DNA from: Gloeomargaritales cyanobacterium VI4D9
Lineage (GTDB): Bacteria > Cyanobacteriota > Cyanobacteriia > Gloeomargaritales > Gloeomargaritaceae
Assembly: GCA_927797885.1 (NCBI GenBank)
Contig: OV696605.1
Location: forward strand, 905,157-969,156
Direction of reading: 5' to 3'
DNA length: 64,000 nt
Positions within the stretch are counted from its first letter, which is position 1, and the number at the start of each line of letters is the position of its first letter. The notes under the pieces were generated by a model, which had not been told where the DNA came from, made no database searches, and saw only the letters and a list, made by a program, of their open reading frames with translations. The position numbers and the translations under genes were made by a program. Below are positions 31,265 through 48,317 of this stretch, in pieces.

Positions 31265-31805
31265 AAGGATAGGGGTTTTGCCTCTTGGCAATTGATGGAC
31301 GAAATGTGTAAACGAAATACATTGTTTATTGTGCGGATTAAAAATAATATGAAGTTGCAACCTGACAATCCGGATATTCGGGTAATTCAATTTTTTAATG
31401 AGGAGGAGAACACAGAATATAGGCTGGCGACTAACGTGACTTCGATGACGGATGAAGAGATTTGTTCAGCCTATCGTTTGCGCTGGCGAATTGAGTTGCT
31501 TTGGAAGGCACTAAAGATGCACTTGAAATTGGATAGAATCATTACCAAGAATGAGAATGGTGTGCGGCTACAGATTTATGCCGTATTGATTGGTTATCTA
31601 ATTTTAAGATTGCTGGAGATAGGCCAAAATAAGACCTATGAATTGATTGACAAGTTGCGATATTTACAAATAGAAATAGGCAGGCACTGTACCTTTATGG
31701 AACTTGTGGGTGTAGAGCCCCTGGTAGGGTAACCCTGACCTGTTAAGTTTTATTGCGGACATTCAACACTACTGGGCTTTGATTTTATTGACTTATGGGC
31801 GGTGG

Positions 31806-32913
31806 CACAAGTGTTGAATCCTGCAATAAAACTTTACATATTTAGGCGTGGGACGACCCGATTGAGCCAATGGACAAAATTCCACTCCTGCCGTATTAAG
31901 ATTTGTATATATCGGAACTTATCTGCCAATTTACTTCCGTACATCCGTGGAACTTTTAACAGTTGCAATATCAAGTAAACTATTAAAATTACATAAATTT
32001 GAATGGTAATTCCATTCAAATTTTTACTCATCATTTTATCGAGCTTTAAGTTCATCTTTAGAAATTTCCATAGTACCTCTATCGCCCAGCGTTGTCTATA
32101 GGCTTCCCCTATCTCTTCATTACTCATTACATCCTCAGGAATATTGGTAGCTAAATAATAGTCTACTTTCTGTTGAACATTGCCAAAACAAACTACTCTC
32201 GCCTTACCTCGTTCTGTGGTGATATGATAGTTTTCATCCCATTTCCAATTCGACTTAATACGGATAATAAAAAGGGCATCATTTTCGATAAATTGTTCAA
32301 ATACTTTGTGACTGCAAAACCCTCTATCCCCGACTGCGACTCCATTTTCCGGTAGCATTTTCACAATATCTTCACCAAAATTAATCTCATGTGCCTGTCC
32401 AGGACTAACAATTAAATGACCAGTAGATTTCGTATCTTGATTCAAAGTGGTTATTAACTTTACTTGGCGATAGCCTTGGAGCCAAAATAACTTACTCATC
32501 AGCGGTATTACGGTAGCATCAAAAGGACATAAAACCAACCTCTTTTCAGGATGAGCTTCCTCAATATAATGCAATAATTTATGATAAAGATGCATAAAAA
32601 TTTGTGGGTCTCTTGTCTTGTTCGCCTTAGAAAACGTGGATAAGTCAACCTTAATGCCCGCATGATTTAATTGGTAAAATAAGTCCCGTAAACTGTTGAT
32701 TCCTTTGTCTAAAATGCCAGCAAACCAGATTGAACAAAATAAGCGAGAATTTAGAACTGGATAATCATTAGTTGGCAGGTCTTTGAGTAAAAATTTGACA
32801 ATCCCGGGAAAAGAATTGAATTTCATAGTTGTTTCATGTTTTGGTTTATATGAATTAGAATACCATATTTTGACCCCTCTTTTTCTGCCTTTACCTACCT
32901 TTCAACACTTCTG
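31806..32913 (-). mobile_element. IS4-family element, copy 1 (intact, with target duplication)
   Basis: 1108 bp, with ends CACAAGTGTTGAA and TTCAACACTTCTG as imperfect 13-bp inverted repeats. It is flanked by the 9-bp direct repeat GGGCGGTGG (31797-31805 and 32914-32922), which shows a recent simple insertion. The transposase is identical in sequence to those of copies 2 and 3. Confidence 0.95.
31834..32826 (-). CDS. IS4-family transposase, copy 1
   Basis: A 330-residue DDE transposase. The catalytic acids are in [19 protein letters not shown] and the YREK box [15 protein letters not shown] (Y-2-R-3-E-6-K), the hallmark of IS4. It has no frameshift and is probably active. Two further identical proteins are encoded at 35103-36095 and 46936-47928. 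Confidence 0.95.
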   Translation of the reverse strand: MKFNSFPGIVKFLLKDLPTNDYPVLNSRLFCSIWFAGILDKGINSLRDLFYQLNHAGIKVDLSTFSKANKTRDPQIFMHLYHKLLHYIEEAHPEKRLVLCPFDATVIPLMSKLFWLQGYRQVKLITTLNQDTKSTGHLIVSPGQAHEINFGEDIVKMLPENGVAVGDRGFCSHKVFEQFIENDALFIIRIKSNWKWDENYHITTERGKARVVCFGNVQQKVDYYLATNIPEDVMSNEEIGEAYRQRWAIEVLWKFLKMNLKLDKMMSKNLNGITIQIYVILIVYLILQLLKVPRMYGSKLADKFRYIQILIRQEWNFVHWLNRVVPRLNM

Positions 32914-33124
32914 GGGCGGTGGATTTTAATTGGCATCCTGGCAAACCTTTCAACCACGACTGGCAAAACTACCGCACCCGCAAAGACCGTAGCCTTAAAA
33001 CAGTCAGCGATGCCGGTTATACTTATCTTCAACCGGGCAAATACACCGCCTGCGTCAAAGTAGTAGATACCTTCTACCTTCGGTTGCGACACCTCGATTA
33101 CTCTGGAGATAGAGGTGTAACCCA

Positions 33125-35074: not shown

Positions 35075-36182
35075 CACAAGTGTTGAATCCTGCAATAAAA
35101 CTTTACATATTTAGGCGTGGGACGACCCGATTGAGCCAATGGACAAAATTCCACTCCTGCCGTATTAAGATTTGTATATATCGGAACTTATCTGCCAATT
35201 TACTTCCGTACATCCGTGGAACTTTTAACAGTTGCAATATCAAGTAAACTATTAAAATTACATAAATTTGAATGGTAATTCCATTCAAATTTTTACTCAT
35301 CATTTTATCGAGCTTTAAGTTCATCTTTAGAAATTTCCATAGTACCTCTATCGCCCAGCGTTGTCTATAGGCTTCCCCTATCTCTTCATTACTCATTACA
35401 TCCTCAGGAATATTGGTAGCTAAATAATAGTCTACTTTCTGTTGAACATTGCCAAAACAAACTACTCTCGCCTTACCTCGTTCTGTGGTGATATGATAGT
35501 TTTCATCCCATTTCCAATTCGACTTAATACGGATAATAAAAAGGGCATCATTTTCGATAAATTGTTCAAATACTTTGTGACTGCAAAACCCTCTATCCCC
35601 GACTGCGACTCCATTTTCCGGTAGCATTTTCACAATATCTTCACCAAAATTAATCTCATGTGCCTGTCCAGGACTAACAATTAAATGACCAGTAGATTTC
35701 GTATCTTGATTCAAAGTGGTTATTAACTTTACTTGGCGATAGCCTTGGAGCCAAAATAACTTACTCATCAGCGGTATTACGGTAGCATCAAAAGGACATA
35801 AAACCAACCTCTTTTCAGGATGAGCTTCCTCAATATAATGCAATAATTTATGATAAAGATGCATAAAAATTTGTGGGTCTCTTGTCTTGTTCGCCTTAGA
35901 AAACGTGGATAAGTCAACCTTAATGCCCGCATGATTTAATTGGTAAAATAAGTCCCGTAAACTGTTGATTCCTTTGTCTAAAATGCCAGCAAACCAGATT
36001 GAACAAAATAAGCGAGAATTTAGAACTGGATAATCATTAGTTGGCAGGTCTTTGAGTAAAAATTTGACAATCCCGGGAAAAGAATTGAATTTCATAGTTG
36101 TTTCATGTTTTGGTTTATATGAATTAGAATACCATATTTTGACCCCTCTTTTTCTGCCTTTACCTACCTTTCAACACTTCTG
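35075..36182 (-). mobile_element. IS4-family element, copy 2 (no target duplication)
   Basis: The same 1108-bp length and ends as copy 1. The flanks (CTTTCAGAC and AATACTGGG) do not match, so this copy is not the product of one simple insertion. It cuts through an attC site on its right side. Confidence 0.93.
35103..36095 (-). CDS. IS4-family transposase, copy 2
   Basis: Identical 330-residue protein to copy 1, with all catalytic residues and the YREK box. Confidence 0.95.
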   Translation of the reverse strand: MKFNSFPGIVKFLLKDLPTNDYPVLNSRLFCSIWFAGILDKGINSLRDLFYQLNHAGIKVDLSTFSKANKTRDPQIFMHLYHKLLHYIEEAHPEKRLVLCPFDATVIPLMSKLFWLQGYRQVKLITTLNQDTKSTGHLIVSPGQAHEINFGEDIVKMLPENGVAVGDRGFCSHKVFEQFIENDALFIIRIKSNWKWDENYHITTERGKARVVCFGNVQQKVDYYLATNIPEDVMSNEEIGEAYRQRWAIEVLWKFLKMNLKLDKMMSKNLNGITIQIYVILIVYLILQLLKVPRMYGSKLADKFRYIQILIRQEWNFVHWLNRVVPRLNM

Positions 36183-36214
36183 AATACTGGGTCAGGTGTA
36201 GCGACTTGTTATGT
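36183..36214 (-). other. attC half site, cut by IS4 copy 2
   Basis: GGTCAGGTGTAGCGACTT followed by GTTATGT at 36208-36214 matches the right half of the attC sites at 42150 and 42329. The other half was lost at the IS boundary. Confidence 0.75.
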
Positions 36215-36229
36215 TGTGTAAATTTTTCA

Positions 36230-36310
36230 CTAATCGCCCTCACTACCCACCAACTCCAGCGCCCCTTCACCAACAACCTTGACTAGGAATGACTCTGGCG
36301 CTGGCAACAT
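36230..36310 (-). CDS. Mini-cassette A: possible 26-residue peptide or structured RNA
   Basis: The spacer between the attC half site and the next attC is only about 92 bases. On the minus strand it offers MLPAPESFLVKVVGEGALEL followed by VGSEGD and a stop. The ATG lies inside the attC core. The same spacer contains CCAGCGCC and GGCGCTGG as a perfect inverted pair. Two homologous units lie at 42236-42507. Whether the peptide or the hairpin is the conserved feature is open. Confidence 0.4.
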   Translation of the reverse strand: MLPAPESFLVKVVGEGALELVGSEGD

Positions 36311-36392
36311 AACGGTTGAGATGAGCCGCCGCAGGTCACTTTTGATGCCCACAAATAGCCTCTTGGCGGTCGGCTCCAACGACTTGTTATGC
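36307..36392 (-). other. attC recombination site
   Basis: An 86-bp site bounded by ACATAAC (36307-36313) and GTTATGC (36386-36392). It is closely similar to the site at 44686-44771 (shared GATGAGCCGCCGCAG and GGTCGGCTCCA). It lies 7 bases beyond the stop of the DUF5615 gene, as expected for the end of a cassette. Confidence 0.85.
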
Positions 36393-36399
36393 CGCCGTG

Positions 36400-36741
36400 C
36401 TAATCCACTCTGATCTCTACTAATTTTTCACCAGAACGTAGTAGCTCCAGTGCTTCTGGGAAAACTGAACTCAAAATCTCACGCAATCGAGCATTTGATG
36501 TATTTCCGCAAGTCAACCAAATAATTTGTGGAGGTGCTCCCAATCGATCTACCAAATCCACAAAATCACTGTCTTTCGTCATAAAGATTACTCCTTGAGC
36601 CTTTGCAGCCTCAAAGATTTCAGGGTCTTCTGCATCTCGTAGACCAAGATCCCGTAACGCCAACGCTGTAATCCCAAAGGTATTTGTGATCCAGATTGCT
36701 ATCGCCGGAGACAGATGTGCATCGATCCAGATGGTTGTCAT
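36400..36741 (-). CDS. DUF5615 PIN-like toxin-type protein
   Basis: A 113-residue protein with IWIDAHLSPAIAIWI, AKAQGVIFMTKDSDF and a C-terminal VEIRV, the pattern of DUF5615 (Mut7-C/PIN-like) proteins with conserved aspartates. It overlaps DUF433 by 4 bases. The DUF433-DUF5615 pair is common in cyanobacteria and behaves like a toxin-antitoxin module by context. An attC follows directly. Confidence 0.88.
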   Translation of the reverse strand: MTTIWIDAHLSPAIAIWITNTFGITALALRDLGLRDAEDPEIFEAAKAQGVIFMTKDSDFVDLVDRLGAPPQIIWLTCGNTSNARLREILSSVFPEALELLRSGEKLVEIRVD

Positions 36742-36962
36742 GCCACCAAAATAGGATGGTTCAATTTACGTGCTGCATATGTTAGAGAGGCTCGGATATC
36801 GTCCATTTCTAAATCTGGCAAGTCTTCTAAAATCTCTTCAGCACTTAAACCTGCTGCGAACAAATCTAAAACATCAGAGACTCGAATTCTCATCCCACGA
36901 ATACAGGGACGACCACCACATTGTCTGGGATTGACTGTAATTCGTTCAAGTAGCTTTGACAT
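36738..36962 (-). CDS. DUF433 antitoxin-like protein
   Basis: A small winged-helix-like protein: LERITVNPRQCGGRPCIRGM followed by RVSDVLDLFAAGLSAEEIL and a C-terminal AARKLNHPI. It is the usual partner of DUF5615. I use the ATG at 36962; a frame extension of nine codons has no support. It starts 28 bases downstream of nurA on the same strand. Confidence 0.88.
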   Translation of the reverse strand: MSKLLERITVNPRQCGGRPCIRGMRIRVSDVLDLFAAGLSAEEILEDLPDLEMDDIRASLTYAARKLNHPILVA

Positions 36963-36989
36963 TTGAAGAAACCTCCATAAAATCAGCAT

Positions 36990-38051
36990 CTATCGAAAAG
37001 TCCGTTCATCCATTTCCTCAAAAAACAACTCTTCGCTTTGAGTTGCCATTCGCAATGCTATGCGGTCTTGTAAAATTCTTGAATTAAAGTTTCTACGAAC
37101 CTCTTCATCCACACGATTAAGCAAAAATGGTATTTCGTGCCCAGCGTGATTCATCTGACAGTCAGCGGTCATGATGCGAAGCATATTTTCTAGATGGTCT
37201 TCGTGTACTTCAAAACCAAATACTTTGTTTCTAGGCTTGAAAATACCTCTTAGAATGCGAGTTGCATCGCCGTTCAGAAAGGAAGATAATGTTCCTCTAG
37301 AACTCTCGCCCTGATTTCTGTTAGGAGCATTGCTATTTGACAAGTGATCGTAAAGCGTTTGTACAATAAAGAGTTCTCCTGTTCTTAAAGCACGGGCAAA
37401 GGTTGAAAATACCACATTTGCCTTGATATTTTTCATAACTCCGATGCATTGCTTACCACTAGAAAATAGGCTTTCATAAAGATCTACACCTTCCTGTGTA
37501 GCTACAAGCCACTCATATACCAGCGTTCCATCAAAAAATATGTAAGGTTCCTCAAGTTCTAAACCGTGCCTAACTTCAAAGTATCTGAGATAAGCTGTTG
37601 AGGAAATACCGAAGAGAGCTTGTTCCTGCCTAGCGATAAAGTCATTAGTATCTTGAGAGTCATCCAGATAAGCTCTACCAGACCAATAGTGTAGGGAATT
37701 CTGCAAAGGTCGGCGATGGGAGATGCTGCCAATTCCTACACACAAGGCTTGTCCAGATGAATACATTTGTAGGGGAAGCGCAAGGGTTCCGTCTACAGAA
37801 GCAACTTGTCCCTGTTCTAACTCTGGAGCATTACTGAATAAACCAAATTCAACCTGTCGTAGCCTTGGTTTACCTCCTGGGAGTGACCTTGACGATTCCA
37901 TTGCTTCTCTCGCTTCACGAGTAATTTGCCTAGCCTGCTCACTATCCAACATTTCGACAACATCATCAGCAATGCCACCAAAGGTTGTGGCAAATTCATC
38001 GCGACTAATTCGTCTAGAGCGTTTAACTAACTCACGGAACATACTAGACAT
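36990..38051 (-). CDS. NurA-domain nuclease
   Basis: NurA is a 5'-3' nuclease that works with the HerA helicase. The ATG at 38051 is chosen because AAGGGGGAA lies about 8 bases upstream, and it overlaps the methyltransferase stop by 8 bases. The 353-residue protein has QVASVDGTLALP (motif I Asp), YIFFDGTLVYEWL (second Asp), IGVMKN, and the C-terminal GHEIPFLLNRVDEEVRR, which parallels the usual GYPxPL-Ad box. It lies directly downstream of a DNA methyltransferase and HerA in one integron cassette. Confidence 0.82.
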   Translation of the reverse strand: MSSMFRELVKRSRRISRDEFATTFGGIADDVVEMLDSEQARQITREAREAMESSRSLPGGKPRLRQVEFGLFSNAPELEQGQVASVDGTLALPLQMYSSGQALCVGIGSISHRRPLQNSLHYWSGRAYLDDSQDTNDFIARQEQALFGISSTAYLRYFEVRHGLELEEPYIFFDGTLVYEWLVATQEGVDLYESLFSSGKQCIGVMKNIKANVVFSTFARALRTGELFIVQTLYDHLSNSNAPNRNQGESSRGTLSSFLNGDATRILRGIFKPRNKVFGFEVHEDHLENMLRIMTADCQMNHAGHEIPFLLNRVDEEVRRNFNSRILQDRIALRMATQSEELFFEEMDERTFR

Positions 38052-39360
38052 TATCATTTCCCCCTTTTTTAAATACATTAAGAACGCAGGTATCTGATCG
38101 CATTCTACGATCACGCTTTGCCATGTTGTTTTTTGTTGCACTGCCAGGCTCCTGCTGGCGACCTCGAGAGACATAAGCGGTATCTATCCAATTTAGACCA
38201 CAAGCGATCGCCATTGAATAAACATCTGACGGAATATCATGATTGGGATCTTCAAGTCTAAACCCACTCCATTTAGGTAAAAAAATGCATAGCCTTCCCT
38301 TAGGGTTTAAGGATTCAGCCAATGCAGTTATTATTTCTTTCATCACACGAAGATAGCTATCGTAGCTATCAGTACATGCTAACTGGTCAGTAAATAAGTG
38401 ACTGGACTGTCCATAGTATGGCGGATCAATGAAAATCCAATCAGCTTTAATCGGTAAAGGCTCTCTTGCATCGTGTTTTTTAATAAAGTGCCGACGGGGA
38501 TGTAAATCAAATAACTCAATTTTTAATTGAAAGTTAGAATCTTTCTGCCATAGGTCTCGGTCTTCATAAACCCGCTTCAGCATTCCACTACCAGCCATTG
38601 GATCAACTGCAATGCCTGATTGAGGAGCAAAGTAGTATAGTGCATTTGCATAAACCTCCCCAGGAATTGATCCTGGAAAATCTTCTTCTTGTCTCCATTT
38701 TGGATGGCTGAAAGCCCACCAATCCGAGGGTTTAATAATATCAAGGTTGGCTTTGATGCTTCCATTCTTTTGGCACCAGTTCCGATGAACTTGGGTATGT
38801 GTTGCCTCAGGATTAGTTTCAAGAAATTTGATAGCTTCAATTAAATACTCCTTAGCTCCAGTTCTTTGGCGTTGGGCATATTGAAAAAGTAGAGGGGAAG
38901 CTTTACGCAAAATAGTTGTTTCTACGCCTGCCTCTTCAACATTGATAATAGCTTGACCTTGAGCAACAAAACCCTTTGCCCTTGTTAGACCAACACCAAC
39001 TTGATTACAGACTTGACTAAGTTTTAACTGATTTGAATCATCTTCTCTCCGAGCCTCGATTATCTGAGAAACTCTAGCCCATAACTTCGCGCGATAAAAT
39101 GCTCCTCCTGGCTCTCTTTTACAAGCAAGTTCAGCACATTGTGCAAGTTGTTTTGGATCTAAAATTTCAGTAAAAATGAGTTCAGCAGTCTCATAAAAGG
39201 AATTATTATCTACTACATTCTGAAACTGGTTTAGAAGATCCTCCGCTCCATTTTTCTGGTGCTGCAAAGATCCATTCCCAGAAATCTCGAGCTGTGAAGA
39301 AGTATGACTATTAGTTAACAATTCCGCTACTTTGTTTTGAGTTTTAGAAATCAATTTCAT
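38044..39360 (-). CDS. DNA methyltransferase (DPPY type) with unusual N-terminal half
   Basis: A 438-residue protein. The C-terminal half (about 225-430) is an N6-adenine or N4-cytosine methyltransferase: GIAVDPMAGSGMLKRVYE is the SAM-binding motif and FIDPPYYGQSS the catalytic motif. The N-terminal 200 residues are helical and have no family I can name; LSQVCNQVGVGLTRAKGFV might be a DNA-binding helix-turn-helix. It overlaps both herA (17 bases) and nurA (8 bases), so the three are made together. A HIP1 octamer lies at 38204-38211. Confidence 0.85.
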   Translation of the reverse strand: MKLISKTQNKVAELLTNSHTSSQLEISGNGSLQHQKNGAEDLLNQFQNVVDNNSFYETAELIFTEILDPKQLAQCAELACKREPGGAFYRAKLWARVSQIIEARREDDSNQLKLSQVCNQVGVGLTRAKGFVAQGQAIINVEEAGVETTILRKASPLLFQYAQRQRTGAKEYLIEAIKFLETNPEATHTQVHRNWCQKNGSIKANLDIIKPSDWWAFSHPKWRQEEDFPGSIPGEVYANALYYFAPQSGIAVDPMAGSGMLKRVYEDRDLWQKDSNFQLKIELFDLHPRRHFIKKHDAREPLPIKADWIFIDPPYYGQSSHLFTDQLACTDSYDSYLRVMKEIITALAESLNPKGRLCIFLPKWSGFRLEDPNHDIPSDVYSMAIACGLNWIDTAYVSRGRQQEPGSATKNNMAKRDRRMRSDTCVLNVFKKGGNDNV

Positions 39361-41032
39361 CTCCTACGGCTACTAAATCTGCTGGCTGACGGTTAATTCT
39401 AGCACCTGTGTTGTCAGTTCTCATCAGTTCAAACGGTGATGGAGCCCTCTGCGCTAAAACTGTAGCCTTTGACTCATATATCGAAACCAGAGCTTGCCCA
39501 GTACCTAAACTCATTGCCTGTGGAGAAAATTCTTTACCCATCGTTTGAGTTGCAGCATCTGCCTCAGCCTTACTGTTCTGTCGCATGACAAATTTTGTGT
39601 TCAAGTTGTTCATAACACGCTGAGGAATCTGTGAGGTATTTTGCAAACTCAAAATGATTGAGTGGTCAACCGATCTTCCCTCTCTCATGACCCGCTCAAA
39701 TGCGCGTTCTAATGCAGAACTGTGTCGAGAGTCATTGTCAAAAATCCGGTGGGCTTCATCTACCATTTGAACAATTCCCACTGAGTTTTCTCTGGGAAGT
39801 TTACGATATTGCTGACAGATCCGCAGGAAATAGGAAAGAATCAAAGCATAGGATTGTTCATCCATCTGTGAATAATCAATTACAATTAATCTTCCAGATT
39901 GAACAAATTCCTCAAGGCTAAACGCCGTAACCGTTTGCCTACGATTGCCATCCAGACTGGAGCCTCTTAAACGATTAGCTGGTTGTTGCCTAATATTTTG
40001 TCCTATTACATCCAACCAGGGCATACCGCGACGACGAGATTCTATTTTTCTTAAAACAGCTTGTCCTGTTGATTCATGAATCTGTTCAAGTGGAGGTAAG
40101 TCTCGACTAATCCGCCGTTGAACTTCTTGTATAATGTTATTCAATGAGTACGTTCTTCCATTCTCCTGTCGTTGTCTAAGAGCATAGGTAGCCGTTGCAA
40201 ACGCTTCAAACTGGAGTGGTGGGTCATTGGCAGTAAAAAATAAAGTTGCAAGCATTTCTGGAGAAAAGTCTGAGGCATGAAATCCAACGACTGTCCTTAC
40301 ATTGCTCGGATCACACAATCCGTGAAATTCAACTCTTATTACATTAGTAACCCCACGAGGACTTAATCCATATTGGGCAAATTGCTGCCAAATTTCATGT
40401 GGTACGCCTGGATCTGTATTCGCACGATCAACAAAGCCGTAATCTGGTTTGGCATCATGTAGAAGAACACATTTTCCAAATTTTAGAGCTTGTTCTACAA
40501 GGTTTGCCGAGACATTAGATTTGCCTGATCCTGTCCCCCCGGAAACCATGATGTGATAATTGAATTTAAGAGCATCAATGCATAAAGGAACACCTGCTGC
40601 ATTAAGAAGTTCACCCACAACATTAGAACTACCATCTTGGCGATCCAATCTTTGAGGGATGCCAATAACTCGGCTGGTGTCTTCAATATTTAGTCTGCTT
40701 ACAACCGCTCCAGGCAAGGGACGAAGGCGAGGAGTCAGTAACTGGCGACCATTGTATTGACCAAGAATGCCTATTTCAAAAACTTGAACAGATTCTACAG
40801 ATTGAACATCTGGATGCTCCTGCATCAGCCTCAGTCCGTGTAAAATCGTTGGATCCAGCCTGTTACTATTGACAATTGAAATGTTGCGGTTTGGCTCAAG
40901 GATTTGACCAATCCATGCCATTTCGCCCTGATCAATCCGAACATAATCAAACAGTGCAAACCCTTCCTCTATGCTTGCCATTGCTTGAACATGGGACAGA
41001 TCCCCACCAGTTCCATCATGTAGAATGATCAT
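39344..41032 (-). CDS. herA: HerA-type DNA translocase/helicase
   Basis: A 562-residue hexameric ATPase of the HerA-FtsK superfamily. The N-terminal HAS-barrel region is followed by Walker A VSGGTGSGKSNV near residue 180. Walker B is IVQMVDEAHRIF, and SIILSLQNTSQIP is the sensor region. The ATG at 41032 has AGAGGT 8 bases upstream; the TTG nine codons before is not favoured. It leads the herA-methyltransferase-nurA operon, which begins about 210 bases after attC 41245-41331. Confidence 0.9.
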   Translation of the reverse strand: MIILHDGTGGDLSHVQAMASIEEGFALFDYVRIDQGEMAWIGQILEPNRNISIVNSNRLDPTILHGLRLMQEHPDVQSVESVQVFEIGILGQYNGRQLLTPRLRPLPGAVVSRLNIEDTSRVIGIPQRLDRQDGSSNVVGELLNAAGVPLCIDALKFNYHIMVSGGTGSGKSNVSANLVEQALKFGKCVLLHDAKPDYGFVDRANTDPGVPHEIWQQFAQYGLSPRGVTNVIRVEFHGLCDPSNVRTVVGFHASDFSPEMLATLFFTANDPPLQFEAFATATYALRQRQENGRTYSLNNIIQEVQRRISRDLPPLEQIHESTGQAVLRKIESRRRGMPWLDVIGQNIRQQPANRLRGSSLDGNRRQTVTAFSLEEFVQSGRLIVIDYSQMDEQSYALILSYFLRICQQYRKLPRENSVGIVQMVDEAHRIFDNDSRHSSALERAFERVMREGRSVDHSIILSLQNTSQIPQRVMNNLNTKFVMRQNSKAEADAATQTMGKEFSPQAMSLGTGQALVSIYESKATVLAQRAPSPFELMRTDNTGARINRQPADLVAVGDEIDF

Positions 41033-41244
41033 TGAGCTTACCTCTTGCGTAATCAACAATCTTAATATCCAGTTTATCCATAAGTCATTGGAATTGTCAT
41101 TGCTTGCCTGTCTGATCGCCCATCTAGATACAAAATATTTTCTTACGAGCTCTAGTTATTGGGCTTTATGGAATGCTAAGGACATTGAGCCTTAGAGACT
41201 GACAGATAGACTGGAAGCTTCCGCCTTACCGATAACTGAAGGCG

Positions 41245-41331
41245 GCATAACGTTCACGCTCACCGGACGCAGATAACTTTTGCAACTCAACCAAGTATAT
41301 TGAACGTTCCGGTGCAGCGTGATTGTTATGC
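41245..41331 (-). other. attC recombination site
   Basis: 87 bp, bounded by GCATAAC (41245-41251) and GTTATGC (41325-41331). It lies 14 bases beyond the stop of the PIN gene and ends that cassette. Confidence 0.85.
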
Positions 41332-41345
41332 AGCGTCTACAACTC

Positions 41346-41762
41346 TTACTCTAAGGGCATCGCCAAAAACTCTTCTGGTAACAGTGCAGGGATTACAGAA
41401 GCCAAAAAATCAGGTGTATTTCGAGTCACAATCACTTCTACACCTGCGGCATTCGCTGCTTCGCTAGTCACAGCATCTTCAAAATCTGCCATAGGACTTT
41501 GCAGCGTAGCCCTAATAACCTCATCAGTCACATTGACGACCTGGAGATGATGTAATAACCTTGATAAAAGCTCGCGTGCTACTTCACCACCAACCTGGCG
41601 GCGCAAAATGTAAAAGATGTTGGTCACAGCATGACCGGACACATATCCCTGCACTTGTGCTTGTGTCACCGTGTTTAAAGCCTGTGCGGAAGCAACAACA
41701 AACAGTTTTCGTTGAGCTAGAACATCAAGCAAAACATCACTATCAAATAATACCCGCCTCAA
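41346..41762 (-). CDS. PIN-domain toxin
   Basis: PIN proteins are Mg-dependent ribonucleases of toxin-antitoxin modules. The best start is the TTG at 41762, overlapping the antitoxin stop, giving LRRVLFDSDVLLDVLAQRKL with the first catalytic Asp. Later acids are in MADFEDAVTSEAA and VTRNTPDF. The 138-residue length is right; the frame extends about 29 codons further, but inside the antitoxin. The partner overlaps directly upstream. Confidence 0.85.
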   Translation of the reverse strand: MRRVLFDSDVLLDVLAQRKLFVVASAQALNTVTQAQVQGYVSGHAVTNIFYILRRQVGGEVARELLSRLLHHLQVVNVTDEVIRATLQSPMADFEDAVTSEAANAAGVEVIVTRNTPDFLASVIPALLPEEFLAMPLE

Positions 41763-42001
41763 CTGTACTTCTCCTCCAGATAATCCACGTAGGACTCTAT
41801 AGGCTCTTCTGTACTTAACTGAATGACTCCAATTAGGCTTTGAGTCCAAGGATTAAGCTCTGCAAAAGAATTCACGGTTGTTGTTGGAGGACTAGGTACC
41901 AGCGTTTCCTGTTGAATTGAACTCAACAACGACTGAACCAAACGCCAGCGATCGCCAAGGGGCAACTGCAATGCCTGATTTTGTAGCTCCTGTAACGTCA
42001 T
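41759..42001 (-). CDS. Antitoxin of the PIN pair
   Basis: An 80-residue protein, MTLQELQNQALQLPLGDRWR through EEPIESYVDYLEEKYS. Antitoxins of this look, with an N-terminal LQLPxxDRWxLVQSLL helix, are common before PIN genes in cyanobacteria. A HIP1 octamer lies within it at 41948-41955. The stop overlaps the toxin start. Confidence 0.78.
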   Translation of the reverse strand: MTLQELQNQALQLPLGDRWRLVQSLLSSIQQETLVPSPPTTTVNSFAELNPWTQSLIGVIQLSTEEPIESYVDYLEEKYS

Positions 42002-42149
42002 CATATCTCTCCCAGCAACTCTTTTATCTATTTTAGATTGCTGTTGTCTCTATCAACTTGAAAAACGCTTCTAGTCAAGGATCTTGCGCCACCTAATTTT
42101 GAACGCTGACAGACAAGCTTTCGGTTACGCCTCAACCAAAAACTGAGCG

Positions 42150-42235
42150 GCATAACGGCTTAGCTCACCTGCTACCAGTAGCTTAGGGAACTGCTCAAAG
42201 CGTAGCATCAGGTCAGGTGCAGCGACTTGTTATGT
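42150..42235 (-). other. attC recombination site
   Basis: 86 bp, bounded by GCATAAC (42150-42156) and GTTATGT (42229-42235). The inner part GCTCACCTGCTACCAGTAGC is nearly the same as in the next site at 42329. Confidence 0.85.
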
Positions 42236-42332
42236 TATGTAAATTTTTGTACTGATCGCTTCTGCTACCCACCGACCCCAGCGCCCCTTTACCAACAACT
42301 TTGACTAGGAATGACTCTGGCGCTGGCAACAT
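42213..42332 (-). CDS. Mini-cassette B: possible 39-residue peptide or structured RNA
   Basis: The reading frame begins MLPAPESFLVKVVGKGALGS and ends NITSRCT inside the next attC. The inverted pair CCAGCGCC/GGCGCTGG is conserved. The unit (spacer plus attC) is 179 bp. See mini-cassettes A and C. Confidence 0.4.
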   Translation of the reverse strand: MLPAPESFLVKVVGKGALGSVGSRSDQYKNLHNITSRCT

Positions 42333-42414
42333 AACGGCTAAGCTCACCCGCCACCAGGGGCTTGGAAAACTGCTCAAAGTGTAGCATCAGGTCAGGTGCA
42401 GCGACTTGTTATGT
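42329..42414 (-). other. attC recombination site
   Basis: 86 bp, bounded by ACATAAC (42329-42335) and GTTATGT (42408-42414). It is nearly identical to the site at 42150-42235. Confidence 0.85.
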
Positions 42415-42511
42415 TGTGTAAATTTTTGGACGAATCGTCTCCACTACCCAATGAATCCAGCGCCCCTTCACCAACAACCTTGACTAAGCACGACTCTGGC
42501 GCTGGCAACAT
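42392..42511 (-). CDS. Mini-cassette C: possible 39-residue peptide or structured RNA
   Basis: MLPAPESCLVKVVGEGALDS begins the frame, which ends NITSRCT in the following attC. Compared with unit B, two of the changes in the first 19 codons are silent and two change the residue. The hairpin arms are unchanged. Confidence 0.4.
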   Translation of the reverse strand: MLPAPESCLVKVVGEGALDSLGSGDDSSKNLHNITSRCT

Positions 42512-42593
42512 AACGGTGAAGTTGTGCGGCGGCAGATAACCTCGAACTCTCGCCGATAACCTTTGTACCGTCCGCACCAACGCAGTGTTGGGC
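42508..42593 (-). other. attC recombination site
   Basis: 86 bp, bounded by ACATAAC (42508-42514) and GTTGGGC (42587-42593), the latter a perfect GTTRRRY core. It lies 12 bases beyond the stop of the mazF gene. Confidence 0.83.
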
Positions 42594-42605
42594 TGCTGGC
42601 ACGTA

Positions 42606-42935
42606 TCACAATCCCAGCCAAATTTGCAAAGACTGCTCTAGCCGTTCTGCATCTACATCAGCTAACTTGCCAATCACCTTTATCACCAAACTCTCATGTA
42701 CTGTGTACACACCTCGCTTAACTGCTGTAGCTACGTTTAGTCCTGTTGCCGACCATTCAGAAAGCGCAAATTCTCCTTCAAGCAACGATCCCACTTTGCT
42801 TGTCAAGGGCGTGATCAGAATATCTTGAGAAGGATGTGGTGCGCCTATCACAACCGCAGGTCTTACTTTGGAACTCGACAAGTCCGAGAATGGATAGCGA
42901 ACTAGGATAATGTCATGTTTGGAGTAGCTGGGCAT
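42606..42935 (-). CDS. MazF/PemK-family toxin
   Basis: A sequence-specific mRNA endonuclease of the MazF/PemK fold. It shows KHDIILVRYPFSDLSSSKVR followed by PAVVIG, then DILITPLTS, the conserved blocks. The start at 42935 is preceded by GAGGA at the right distance; three further in-frame ATGs lie upstream. It overlaps its antitoxin gene by 23 bases. Confidence 0.9.
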   Translation of the reverse strand: MPSYSKHDIILVRYPFSDLSSSKVRPAVVIGAPHPSQDILITPLTSKVGSLLEGEFALSEWSATGLNVATAVKRGVYTVHESLVIKVIGKLADVDAERLEQSLQIWLGL

Positions 42936-43116
42936 ACACATCATCCTCAGTATTATCCCATACGGCATCTAATGATATTTGACTCGCTTCTAGCCAAAAC
43001 CCAGCTTCATCATCAGGAAGCAGCGTCACTAACACCCTTGTTCCTTCAGGAAGCTCCGTTGACTCCAAAAGTTCAATCTTTCCTTGACGAATCGTAGCCC
43101 AAAGCGTTTTCAGCAT
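42913..43116 (-). CDS. Antitoxin of the MazF pair
   Basis: A 67-residue protein with an N-terminal swapped-hairpin-like segment (LKTLWATIRQGKIELLESTE followed by LPEGTRVLVTLLPDD) and an acidic C-terminal tail. It is the usual partner of MazF-type toxins in cyanobacteria. It overlaps the toxin gene. Confidence 0.8.
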   Translation of the reverse strand: MLKTLWATIRQGKIELLESTELPEGTRVLVTLLPDDEAGFWLEASQISLDAVWDNTEDDVYAQLLQT

Positions 43117-44685: not shown

Positions 44686-44771
44686 GCCCAACGATTGAGA
44701 TGAGCCGCCGCAGATAACTTTTGATTCCCACAAATAACATCTCGCCGGTCGGCTCCATCGATTTGTTATGC
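44686..44771 (-). other. attC recombination site
   Basis: 86 bp, bounded by GCCCAAC (44686-44692, perfect RYYYAAC) and GTTATGC (44765-44771). It shares GATGAGCCGCCGCAG and CGGTCGGCTCCA with the site at 36307. It follows the helicase-nuclease gene by 66 bases. Confidence 0.86.
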
Positions 44772-44837: not shown

Positions 44838-46848
44838 CTAAATCAATAATCTTTGCACATAAGTAATTAACTTTTCAGCTTCAGCGGTGGAGTTAGTAAA
44901 CCAGTCTGTAGACCAAATCCGATAAAGTTTCCATCCTAGCCGCTCTAAAACTTGTTGACGGAGGCGATCGCGCGCTGCTTTTGAAGAGTGGTAAGTAGCT
45001 CCGTCACACTCAATTCCAAGTAGGTAAGTGCCTGGTCGTTCAGGGTCAACGACTGCTAAATCAATGAAATATCCAGAAACGCCCACTTGGGGCACAACTT
45101 CATATCCTTGTTGGCGCAGCCGTTCGGCGACAAAAATCTCAAAATCACTATCTGGTTCTCTGCCAGTAACGACTGCTGTTTGTAACCGTTGAGTTTGGGC
45201 ATACTCTAAATACTCTTTAAGTATTTGCACACCACGGTTAGTGGTTGGGCTTGGGCGAATATCACTAGATTTCATCGAAGAAAAAACAACTACCCGTTCT
45301 TTTGCACGAGTGAATAAAACATTCAAGCGACGATGACCATTACGGGAGTTAATTGGACCAAACCTTTGCATAACAGGCATACCAGGACGTTCAGGCCCAT
45401 ATACGGTTGAGATGAAAATGACATCTCGTTCATCTCCCTGCACATTCTCTAGATTTTTGACGAAGAATGGTTCTAATGTGTTCTCTCGTGCCACACGGTA
45501 CTGTTCAAGCTCCGGGTGCAGGGCAAAAAGTCGATCCATTTCATCTAGCAATAACTCCTGTTGTTTTTGGTTAAGAGTAACAATTCCTAATGAGAGATGA
45601 GGATACTGCCTCATGAAATCTGCTGCTGCTTCTGCAACACGCATTGCCTCAGGAACATTAGCCCCAGAACGATAGGCTCCTGTTTCAATATATTGATACT
45701 CAACCGCAAATTGATTATTAGGTGAGGGGAAAATTGTGAGGCTATTGTCGTAAAAGTGTCGGTTAGAGAAGGCAATCAAGCTTTCGTGGCGTGAACGGTA
45801 ATGCCACTTCAAACGGCGGGCGGGATAAAATACTTTGAGCGACATATCCAGGATTGACTCGTCGTCTAGAATATCTGCCTCCTCTCCCGAATCCTCCTCA
45901 GCATCCTGGTCAAAACGAGCCTTAAAGAAATCAGTAGGTGGCAACTGTTTAGGGTCACCCACGACTACCAACTGCTTTGCCCTTGCAATTGAGCCTAAAG
46001 CTTCCTCAGGACGCATTTGGGAAGCTTCATCGATGATGACCATATCAAAGGTAACAGCACCAGGAGGAATAAATTGGGCAACACTAGCAGGTGACATCAT
46101 CCAGCATGGTTTTAACTGCTGAAGTGCAACACTCGCTCGTTGAAATAGATCACGCTGAGATATATGCCGCTTCTGCTTGTTAATTTCATTCTGAATCAAG
46201 GCTAGATTCGTCCACTCAGATCTACGCCCGCGACTGTTTCCTGGTTCGATAGAAGCTTGTGCGAGTTGCGCTACCAATTGCTTCTGATATAAGCTCAATA
46301 ACTGCTTATCCGCTCGTTGAAACTGCTCACGAGCCTGAGCCTGGTTAATACCAGAAAGCTGATTCAGTTCGGGATGCTGTTGATAGGCAAATCTTAGAAG
46401 TGATCGGTAAAAGATGACTTGGTATACATCCTCTAGATTTTCCAGTCCTAATTTGTCATGCTCAAATGCCTCAACGAGAGGTTGCATACCGTCATCAGTA
46501 ACTTGTTGATATGCTCGATGGTAGTTAATCCATGCGGGCAAATCATCACTAGCTGCCACTGCTTGATCGAGACGATCCGCAATTTGCTCAAGCCTAAGAT
46601 TAGTCACATACTGACTTCCAAACATAGCTTGAGCATCAGGTTTGCCTTGCTGAAAAAATGCTTGTCGATACTGCGCCTCTTTTTCGAGGCAGCTTGATAA
46701 GCTTCGTGAAGCAACCTGGATTACTTCTACTACACGGGCTGCATCTACAGTAAATAGTTTGTCTTGAATAGATTGAGGTAATTGAGATTGAATGACTGAT
46801 TTCGCAAAGTTGGTAGTTGCCTCTAACCGTTCAATATCTGTCCTTCCC
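44838..46848 (-). pseudogene. Superfamily 1 helicase with C-terminal Vsr-like nuclease, 5' end removed by IS4 copy 3
   Basis: About 670 codons remain. Helicase motifs II-VI are present: FDMVIIDEASQMRPEEAL, VVVGDPKQLPPTDF, WHYRSRHESLIAF and RRLNVLFTRAKERVVVFSS. The C-terminal 100 residues (EIFVAERLRQQGYEVVPQVG, then LLGIECDGATYHSS and RDRLRQQVLERLGW) form an MTES_1575/Vsr-like nuclease domain. The Walker A half and N-terminus are missing because the gene ends at the IS boundary. The frame now starts inside the IS with unrelated residues. Large helicases of this design (DUF4011 type) often sit in defence loci. Confidence 0.85.
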
Positions 46849-47956
46849 CAGAAGTGTTGAAAGGTAGGTAAAGGCAGAAAAAGAGGGGTCAAAATATGGT
46901 ATTCTAATTCATATAAACCAAAACATGAAACAACTATGAAATTCAATTCTTTTCCCGGGATTGTCAAATTTTTACTCAAAGACCTGCCAACTAATGATTA
47001 TCCAGTTCTAAATTCTCGCTTATTTTGTTCAATCTGGTTTGCTGGCATTTTAGACAAAGGAATCAACAGTTTACGGGACTTATTTTACCAATTAAATCAT
47101 GCGGGCATTAAGGTTGACTTATCCACGTTTTCTAAGGCGAACAAGACAAGAGACCCACAAATTTTTATGCATCTTTATCATAAATTATTGCATTATATTG
47201 AGGAAGCTCATCCTGAAAAGAGGTTGGTTTTATGTCCTTTTGATGCTACCGTAATACCGCTGATGAGTAAGTTATTTTGGCTCCAAGGCTATCGCCAAGT
47301 AAAGTTAATAACCACTTTGAATCAAGATACGAAATCTACTGGTCATTTAATTGTTAGTCCTGGACAGGCACATGAGATTAATTTTGGTGAAGATATTGTG
47401 AAAATGCTACCGGAAAATGGAGTCGCAGTCGGGGATAGAGGGTTTTGCAGTCACAAAGTATTTGAACAATTTATCGAAAATGATGCCCTTTTTATTATCC
47501 GTATTAAGTCGAATTGGAAATGGGATGAAAACTATCATATCACCACAGAACGAGGTAAGGCGAGAGTAGTTTGTTTTGGCAATGTTCAACAGAAAGTAGA
47601 CTATTATTTAGCTACCAATATTCCTGAGGATGTAATGAGTAATGAAGAGATAGGGGAAGCCTATAGACAACGCTGGGCGATAGAGGTACTATGGAAATTT
47701 CTAAAGATGAACTTAAAGCTCGATAAAATGATGAGTAAAAATTTGAATGGAATTACCATTCAAATTTATGTAATTTTAATAGTTTACTTGATATTGCAAC
47801 TGTTAAAAGTTCCACGGATGTACGGAAGTAAATTGGCAGATAAGTTCCGATATATACAAATCTTAATACGGCAGGAGTGGAATTTTGTCCATTGGCTCAA
47901 TCGGGTCGTCCCACGCCTAAATATGTAAAGTTTTATTGCAGGATTCAACACTTGTG
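46849..47956 (+). mobile_element. IS4-family element, copy 3 (no target duplication)
   Basis: 1108 bp with ends CAGAAGTGTTGAA and TTCAACACTTGTG. The flanks GTCCTTCCC and CTATTTACC differ. Both neighbouring genes are cut at the element, one losing its 5' end from each side, which points to a deletion next to or between IS copies. Confidence 0.93.
46936..47928 (+). CDS. IS4-family transposase, copy 3
   Basis: Identical 330-residue protein to copies 1 and 2, in the opposite orientation. Confidence 0.95.
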
Positions 47957-48317
47957 CTATTTACCCTATGCCCTCAAGCAGAAATATCCCCATGCTGACC
48001 GAGAATTGGCATGGCAATATGTTTTCCCAGCCCAGAAGCGTTCTATCAACCCCCAAACGGGTACGATTCATCGTCACCACATCTTAGAAGACTCCCTACA
48101 GAAAGCGATGAAACGAGCAATACAAAGGGCAGGAATATCTAAAAATGGGAGTTGCCATACCCTTCGTCACAGCTTCGCCACCCATCTGCTTGAGGATGGC
48201 TATGACATCCGAACGGTACAAGAATTATTAGGGCATAAGGATGTGAAAACCACGATGATCTATACCCATGTTCTCCAAAAAGGGGCGAGAGCCATTAAAA
48301 GCCCCTTAGATACCTAA
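47957..48317 (+). pseudogene. intI: Integron integrase IntI, C-terminal part
   Basis: About 119 residues of a tyrosine recombinase remain. The stretch [20 protein letters not shown] followed by [20 protein letters not shown] is the IntI-specific extra domain that separates integron integrases from other XerC-like enzymes. The catalytic [30 protein letters not shown] (His and Tyr) follow. The N-terminal two-thirds, including the first Arg, is missing at IS4 copy 3. It is oriented away from the attC array, as real intI genes are. It cannot be active alone. Confidence 0.88.

Follow-up and report, generated by a model that had tools for sequence, protein, structure and literature searches.

A repeated unit made of a short spacer and its own attC site, bearing no gene, recurs in the 64,000-nucleotide stretch analyzed here (hereafter the window; G000:C1:905157-969156 on the 3.16-Mb chromosome of Gloeomargaritales cyanobacterium VI4D9). 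On balance, we read these units as gene-less integron cassettes that would be multiplied and moved whole by integron integrase, and that carry a selected hairpin starting directly after the attC core. ORF-less cassettes, some with promoters, are already documented in Treponema and Vibrio (PMC6557892, PMC11014356), and surveys have recorded integrons in Cyanobacteria (PMC2426708, PMC8618304, PMC8352920); what is unusual here is a hairpin that covaries and lies at the start of the cassette. Like the gene-less cassettes of Treponema and Vibrio, the cyanobacterial units have an attC, lack a gene, and sit among gene cassettes in an array on the chromosome. In contrast, those tested act as promoters, whereas the cyanobacterial family is set apart by its hairpin, and is multicopy and present in several families. 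Our literature search, with most subscription papers outside its reach, turned up no account of this family. Gene-less cassettes have been studied mostly in Vibrio and Treponema, with promoter function as the question; a conserved, covarying, multicopy, noncoding family in several cyanobacterial families offers a test of whether selection on a cassette can extend to sequence beyond its attC, and of whether some cassettes persist through mobility alone.

The integron array and its mini-cassettes

Cassettes, their genes, and attC sites in the array all read on the minus strand (Table 1). Six attC sites were located with a covariance model that includes R and L helices, one unpaired (extrahelical) base, and 23 two-sided pair changes; its L helix was 96.6% paired, with two-sided changes in six of eight pairs. 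The window sites are canonical and identify the units that carry them as integron cassettes. From the integrase side, the array runs from an integron integrase (intI) remnant, which stands in the expected divergent position, through an insertion sequence (IS), a helicase-like frame, and the first recognized attC to a restriction-enzyme-like and a MazF/PemK gene with their attC. Mini-cassettes 1 and 2 follow, then the PIN toxin cassette, a cassette encoding a HerA ATPase, a DNA methylase, an unknown protein, and DUF433 and DUF5615 proteins, a further attC, mini-cassette 3, and a second IS. A psaB-like sequence adjoins the array.

Table 1. Features of the array, in window coordinates
Feature	Position	Strand	Remarks
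Mini-cassette 1	42335..42513	-	complete, gene-less, 179 bp (TTATG...CCG)
Mini-cassette 2	42156..42334	-	complete, gene-less, 179 bp; directly downstream of mini-cassette 1
Mini-cassette 3	36183..36312	-	truncated ~20 nt into its attC by IS (boundary 36182)
attC of mini-cassette 1	42329..42414	-	R2 match 85.0 bits; last 6 nt part of next cassette
attC of mini-cassette 2	42150..42235	-	R2 match 87.4 bits
attC of MazF/PemK cassette	42508..42593	-	upstream of mini-cassette 1; R2 match 72.6 bits
attC upstream of mini-cassette 3	36307..36392	-	covariance model
attC of PIN toxin-antitoxin-like cassette	41245..41331	-	covariance model
attC, first recognized from intI side	44686..44771	-	covariance model
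Hairpin arm, mini-cassette 1	42457..42464	-	GGCGCTGG on - strand
Hairpin arm, mini-cassette 1	42498..42505	-	CCAGCGCC on - strand; 0 nt from extended core TTATGTTG
Hairpin arm, mini-cassette 2	42278..42285	-	
Hairpin arm, mini-cassette 2	42319..42326	-	
Hairpin arm, mini-cassette 3	36256..36263	-	
Hairpin arm, mini-cassette 3	36297..36304	-	
intI remnant	47955..48317	+	TIGR02249 profile positions 195-314; N-terminal part lost at IS boundary
IS copy cutting intI	46846..47956	+	330-aa transposase; ends approximate
IS copy cutting mini-cassette 3	35075..36182	-	identical to intI-cutting copy; boundary 36182
DUF433/DUF5615 pair	36400-36989		toxin-antitoxin-like
PIN_3 + small partner	41346-42004		toxin-antitoxin-like
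MazF/PemK + small partner	42606-43116		toxin-antitoxin-like

Each unit is built from a spacer of about 97 nt and its own attC, and its repetition is far beyond chance. Stops in homologues and the lack of codon selection (see below) mark these cassettes as ORF-less. The preliminary description had reported three near-identical 179-bp units. Two are complete at that length, while the third, ending at 36312, is cut within its attC; near-identity is too strong a term for neighbors 85% alike over 179 nt (mini-cassettes 1 and 2) and for three spacers 83 to 88% alike. Nor is the unit confined to these three loci, as this genome holds 10 type-A copies and other genomes hold many. The perfect CCAGCGCC/GGCGCTGG pair was borne out at all three, as was a frame beginning MLPAPES(F/C)LVKVVG with its ATG inside the core TTATG. 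Across 19 codons, however, three differed silently and three nonsilently, and not two of each as first counted.

Separately, one cassette encodes, at window positions 36990-41059, a HerA-like ATPase, a protein resembling a DNA methylase, and a 394-aa product that matches no Pfam family; it could be a defense system. Neighboring cassettes are filled by toxin-antitoxin-like pairs, as in other chromosomal integrons.

A covarying hairpin beside the attC core

The hairpin comprises 8 bp, CCAGCGCC/GGCGCTGG or compensated versions of it, and begins right after the attC core; the core's own pairing is extended too (GTTATGTTG/CAACATAAC). With 28 distinct spacers aligned, pairing held in 96.4% of stem cells, compared with 35 to 47% when the partner was slid by one to three columns, a control that preserves the relatedness of the sequences. 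None of 500 shuffles reached the observed stem pairing or covariation score, although the sequences are related and shuffle counts are therefore not probabilities. Three stem pairs had changed on both sides. Among the compensations were changes from C-G to U-A at pair 5, from G-C to C-G and A-U at pair 6, and from C-G to U-A and A-U at pair 8. Further compensated arm forms were CCAGTGCC/GGCACTGG, CCAGCCCC/GGGGCTGG, CCAGCCCT/AGGGCTGG, and CCAGCGCA/TGCGCTGG, and at L013:13170 the stem CCAGCGC/GCGCTGG was kept around a wholly different loop. RNAalifold, applied to the same alignment, returned the hairpin stem together with an outer TTATGTTG/CAACATAA stem.

Loop lengths across units were 33, 35, 36, 42, 68, and about 75 nt. 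Type-A units also kept a fairly conserved loop and GGCGATCGGTG..AAAAATTTACA stretch, whereas loops differed completely between subtypes. The varying loop and covarying arms make it unlikely that the hairpin is an inverted repeat of fixed spacing bound by a protein. These patterns support the hairpin as a selected part of the spacer, probably acting in folded form, as DNA or RNA, next to the recombination core. The homologue comparison proposed in the preliminary description, of codon selection against compensatory change, thus yielded compensatory stem changes and no codon selection; its alternative of junk conserving neither stem nor frame is excluded by the stem kept through those changes.

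Spread and insertion of the unit, and loss of the integrase

Homologues occurred in three members of the same genus (G003, G004, and G005) and in the families f5 (G011, G071, and G101), f26 (G102 and G476), and f32 (G262); several named metagenome assemblies also yielded them. Relatives of the unit, other spacer subtypes included, extended to at least three more families of cyanobacteria. All homologues retained TTATGTTGCCAGC...GCTGG...CAACATAAC or a close variant; the loop of subtype B is a different one, with GGGATCCC. The subtype C spacer, at 142 nt, was nearly identical in genomes of families f1 and f26 (L111:10694-10835, L115:9385-9526, and L013:12133-12274), which points to recent horizontal transfer between families. 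Copies stand after differing attC types and before differing genes. Searches of plasmid and viral collections for the unit gave no match, and a match to G235 in the phylum search was rejected as a 41-nt chance palindrome.

Across the phylum sample, 42 of 386 genomes had an intI match (E ≤ 1e-30). intI or its remains were present in all five sampled genomes with true mini-cassettes (G000, G003, G004, G011, and G262, the last with an intact integrase), a co-occurrence that is supportive but, because three of the five share one genus, not independent proof.

One mini-cassette stands alone within tnsB of a type V-K CRISPR-associated transposon (L015:11555-11735; genome 156555-156735), where the upstream sequence is tnsB coding and includes no attC. 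Exact removal of 181 nt restored GGTTAG^TTAAAC and a single open tnsB frame, with the insertion at G^TT. The joined flanks encode a protein whose alignment with ShCAST TnsB (type V-K, Scytonema hofmannii), its closest solved relative, runs through the junction without a gap (E = 1.8e-186). The alignment indicates that a complete unit inserted at a non-attC site, and the moved unit has the G^TT boundaries of a cassette. Because of this boundary and published attG sites (PMC12901181), we infer that an integron integrase made the insertion. Single cassette insertion at a nonclassical attG site has been described (Loot et al. 2024, doi 10.1038/s41564-023-01548-y, as presented in PMC12901181); the tnsB copy resembles that account in lying at G^TT in a site without attC features, and differs in being deduced from sequence alone. 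Mini-cassettes can, on this example, disrupt other mobile elements. Another lone copy, at L014:1149, was dropped as a second gene interruption, its flanks being different genes.

A profile search of this host found no active or intact intI, and the locus is not a complete integron. The IS that cut intI is ~1.1 kb long and occurs in many copies that are 99.5 to 100% identical, including a third in the window (31805-32916) and others in L013, L017, L018, and L019; the burst that broke intI was therefore recent. With the integrase broken, mini-cassette copies in this host would probably be immobile unless an integrase arrives from outside. Two halves of one attC, at window position 36182 and at L013:9638, lie 930 kb apart, each beside an identical IS copy and both with CCAGTATT. 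Recombination between IS copies probably split what had been one array into the two arrays now at 941-949 kb and 9.6-18 kb. Both now lack a complete intI, like a CALIN (an attC cluster lacking an integrase; PMC8618304), but here an integrase remnant still adjoins the main array and the IS shows the route of loss.

Possible roles of the mini-cassettes and their hairpin

Under the explanation we favor, integron integrase would multiply and move mini-cassettes as complete units, each being in effect a nonautonomous selfish cassette. The hairpin would act in the folded single-stranded cassette DNA, stopping the GC-rich spacer from mispairing with attC. Action at the DNA level is our first choice over an RNA role, although weakly held. 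When attC core pairing was computed for a circular single strand with DNA energies, natural spacers outperformed shuffled ones (mean rank 0.28, where 0.5 denotes no effect). Mean core pairing was 0.80 with intact arms, 0.76 or 0.71 with one arm scrambled, and 0.79 with a scrambled complementary pair. The benefit was small and about equal on both strands, and its significance is overstated as the sequences are related. More tentatively, the family could be an integron counterpart of MITEs, namely nonautonomous mini-cassettes spreading in cyanobacteria via host integrases, with the hairpin as a selected accessory recombination element or a cassette-borne RNA.

The main rival, possible but rather doubtful, is that the hairpin acts as a structured RNA of the cassette strand: the spacer would encode a small RNA of the sRNA-Xcc1 kind, or the array transcript would form a stable 5' or intergenic hairpin. 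The compensatory changes are consistent with this, as is the conservation of the type-A loop and adjoining stretch. Among one-sided stem changes on the cassette strand, U-G arose in about 10 independent events and A-C in about 4 (hand count; p ~0.09), an excess that leans toward RNA over the bottom DNA strand used in recombination. A precedent exists in sRNA-Xcc1 of Xanthomonas campestris, an integron-encoded trans-acting small RNA (as cited in PMC8876359). Like the unit, sRNA-Xcc1 is noncoding cassette content spreading with an integron; the cyanobacterial unit differs in being known from its sequence and in having no relative among known RNA families, as an Rfam search of the array returned nothing at E ≤ 1. 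Single spacers also folded no better than their shuffles (z-scores near 0), the loops of different subtypes share nothing, and a simple pattern scan of 41900-42800 detected neither a sigma-70-like promoter nor a terminator, although in silico methods are reported to be unable to predict the promoters of gene-less cassettes (PMC11014356). Of the roles first suggested, a small RNA, a peptide, or a transcription or recombination signal, stops and the lack of codon selection remove the peptide. What is left is a structural signal in RNA or in DNA (recombination), with the stem conserved through compensatory changes; DNA and RNA action are not firmly separated.

By analogy with gene-less Vibrio cassettes (PMC11014356), the unit might instead drive transcription of the next cassette. 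By eye, attC loops of this type contain TGCTAYACT, which resembles an extended -10 element, but this attC type is also found where the spacer is absent, in other cassettes and genomes (L027, L028, and L031), and so is not specific to the unit. As the same simple scan found no promoter-like pair and the compensatory stem changes would be left unexplained, a promoter role seems improbable. We also consider it quite improbable that the units are passive leftovers, duplicated junk without a selected feature. Copies are decaying in some genomes, with broken stem pairs in several G102 copies, and others have been cut by IS elements. However, the stem covaries across subtypes with 96% of cells paired, so pairing was selected at least while the units were active.

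Translation of a micropeptide (MLPAPES(F/C)LVKVVG...) from the core ATG, the least credible reading by far, was rejected, as homologues from several genomes and subtypes carry stops at codon 8 or nearby (units of G102, G005, L057, and L058, and most of subtypes B and C). All 13 units of one type-A subset keep the frame open over 26 codons or more, yet their changes numbered 11 silent and 33 replacement; dealt to random sites, these changes would give 13.8 and 29.2, so there is no silent excess. Third codon positions varied least (9 of 26 sites, against 11 and 17 at the other two). The ATG itself lies in TTATGT; this is R' of the unit's own attC and has to pair with R'' ACATAAC, so the position of the ATG calls for no coding explanation.
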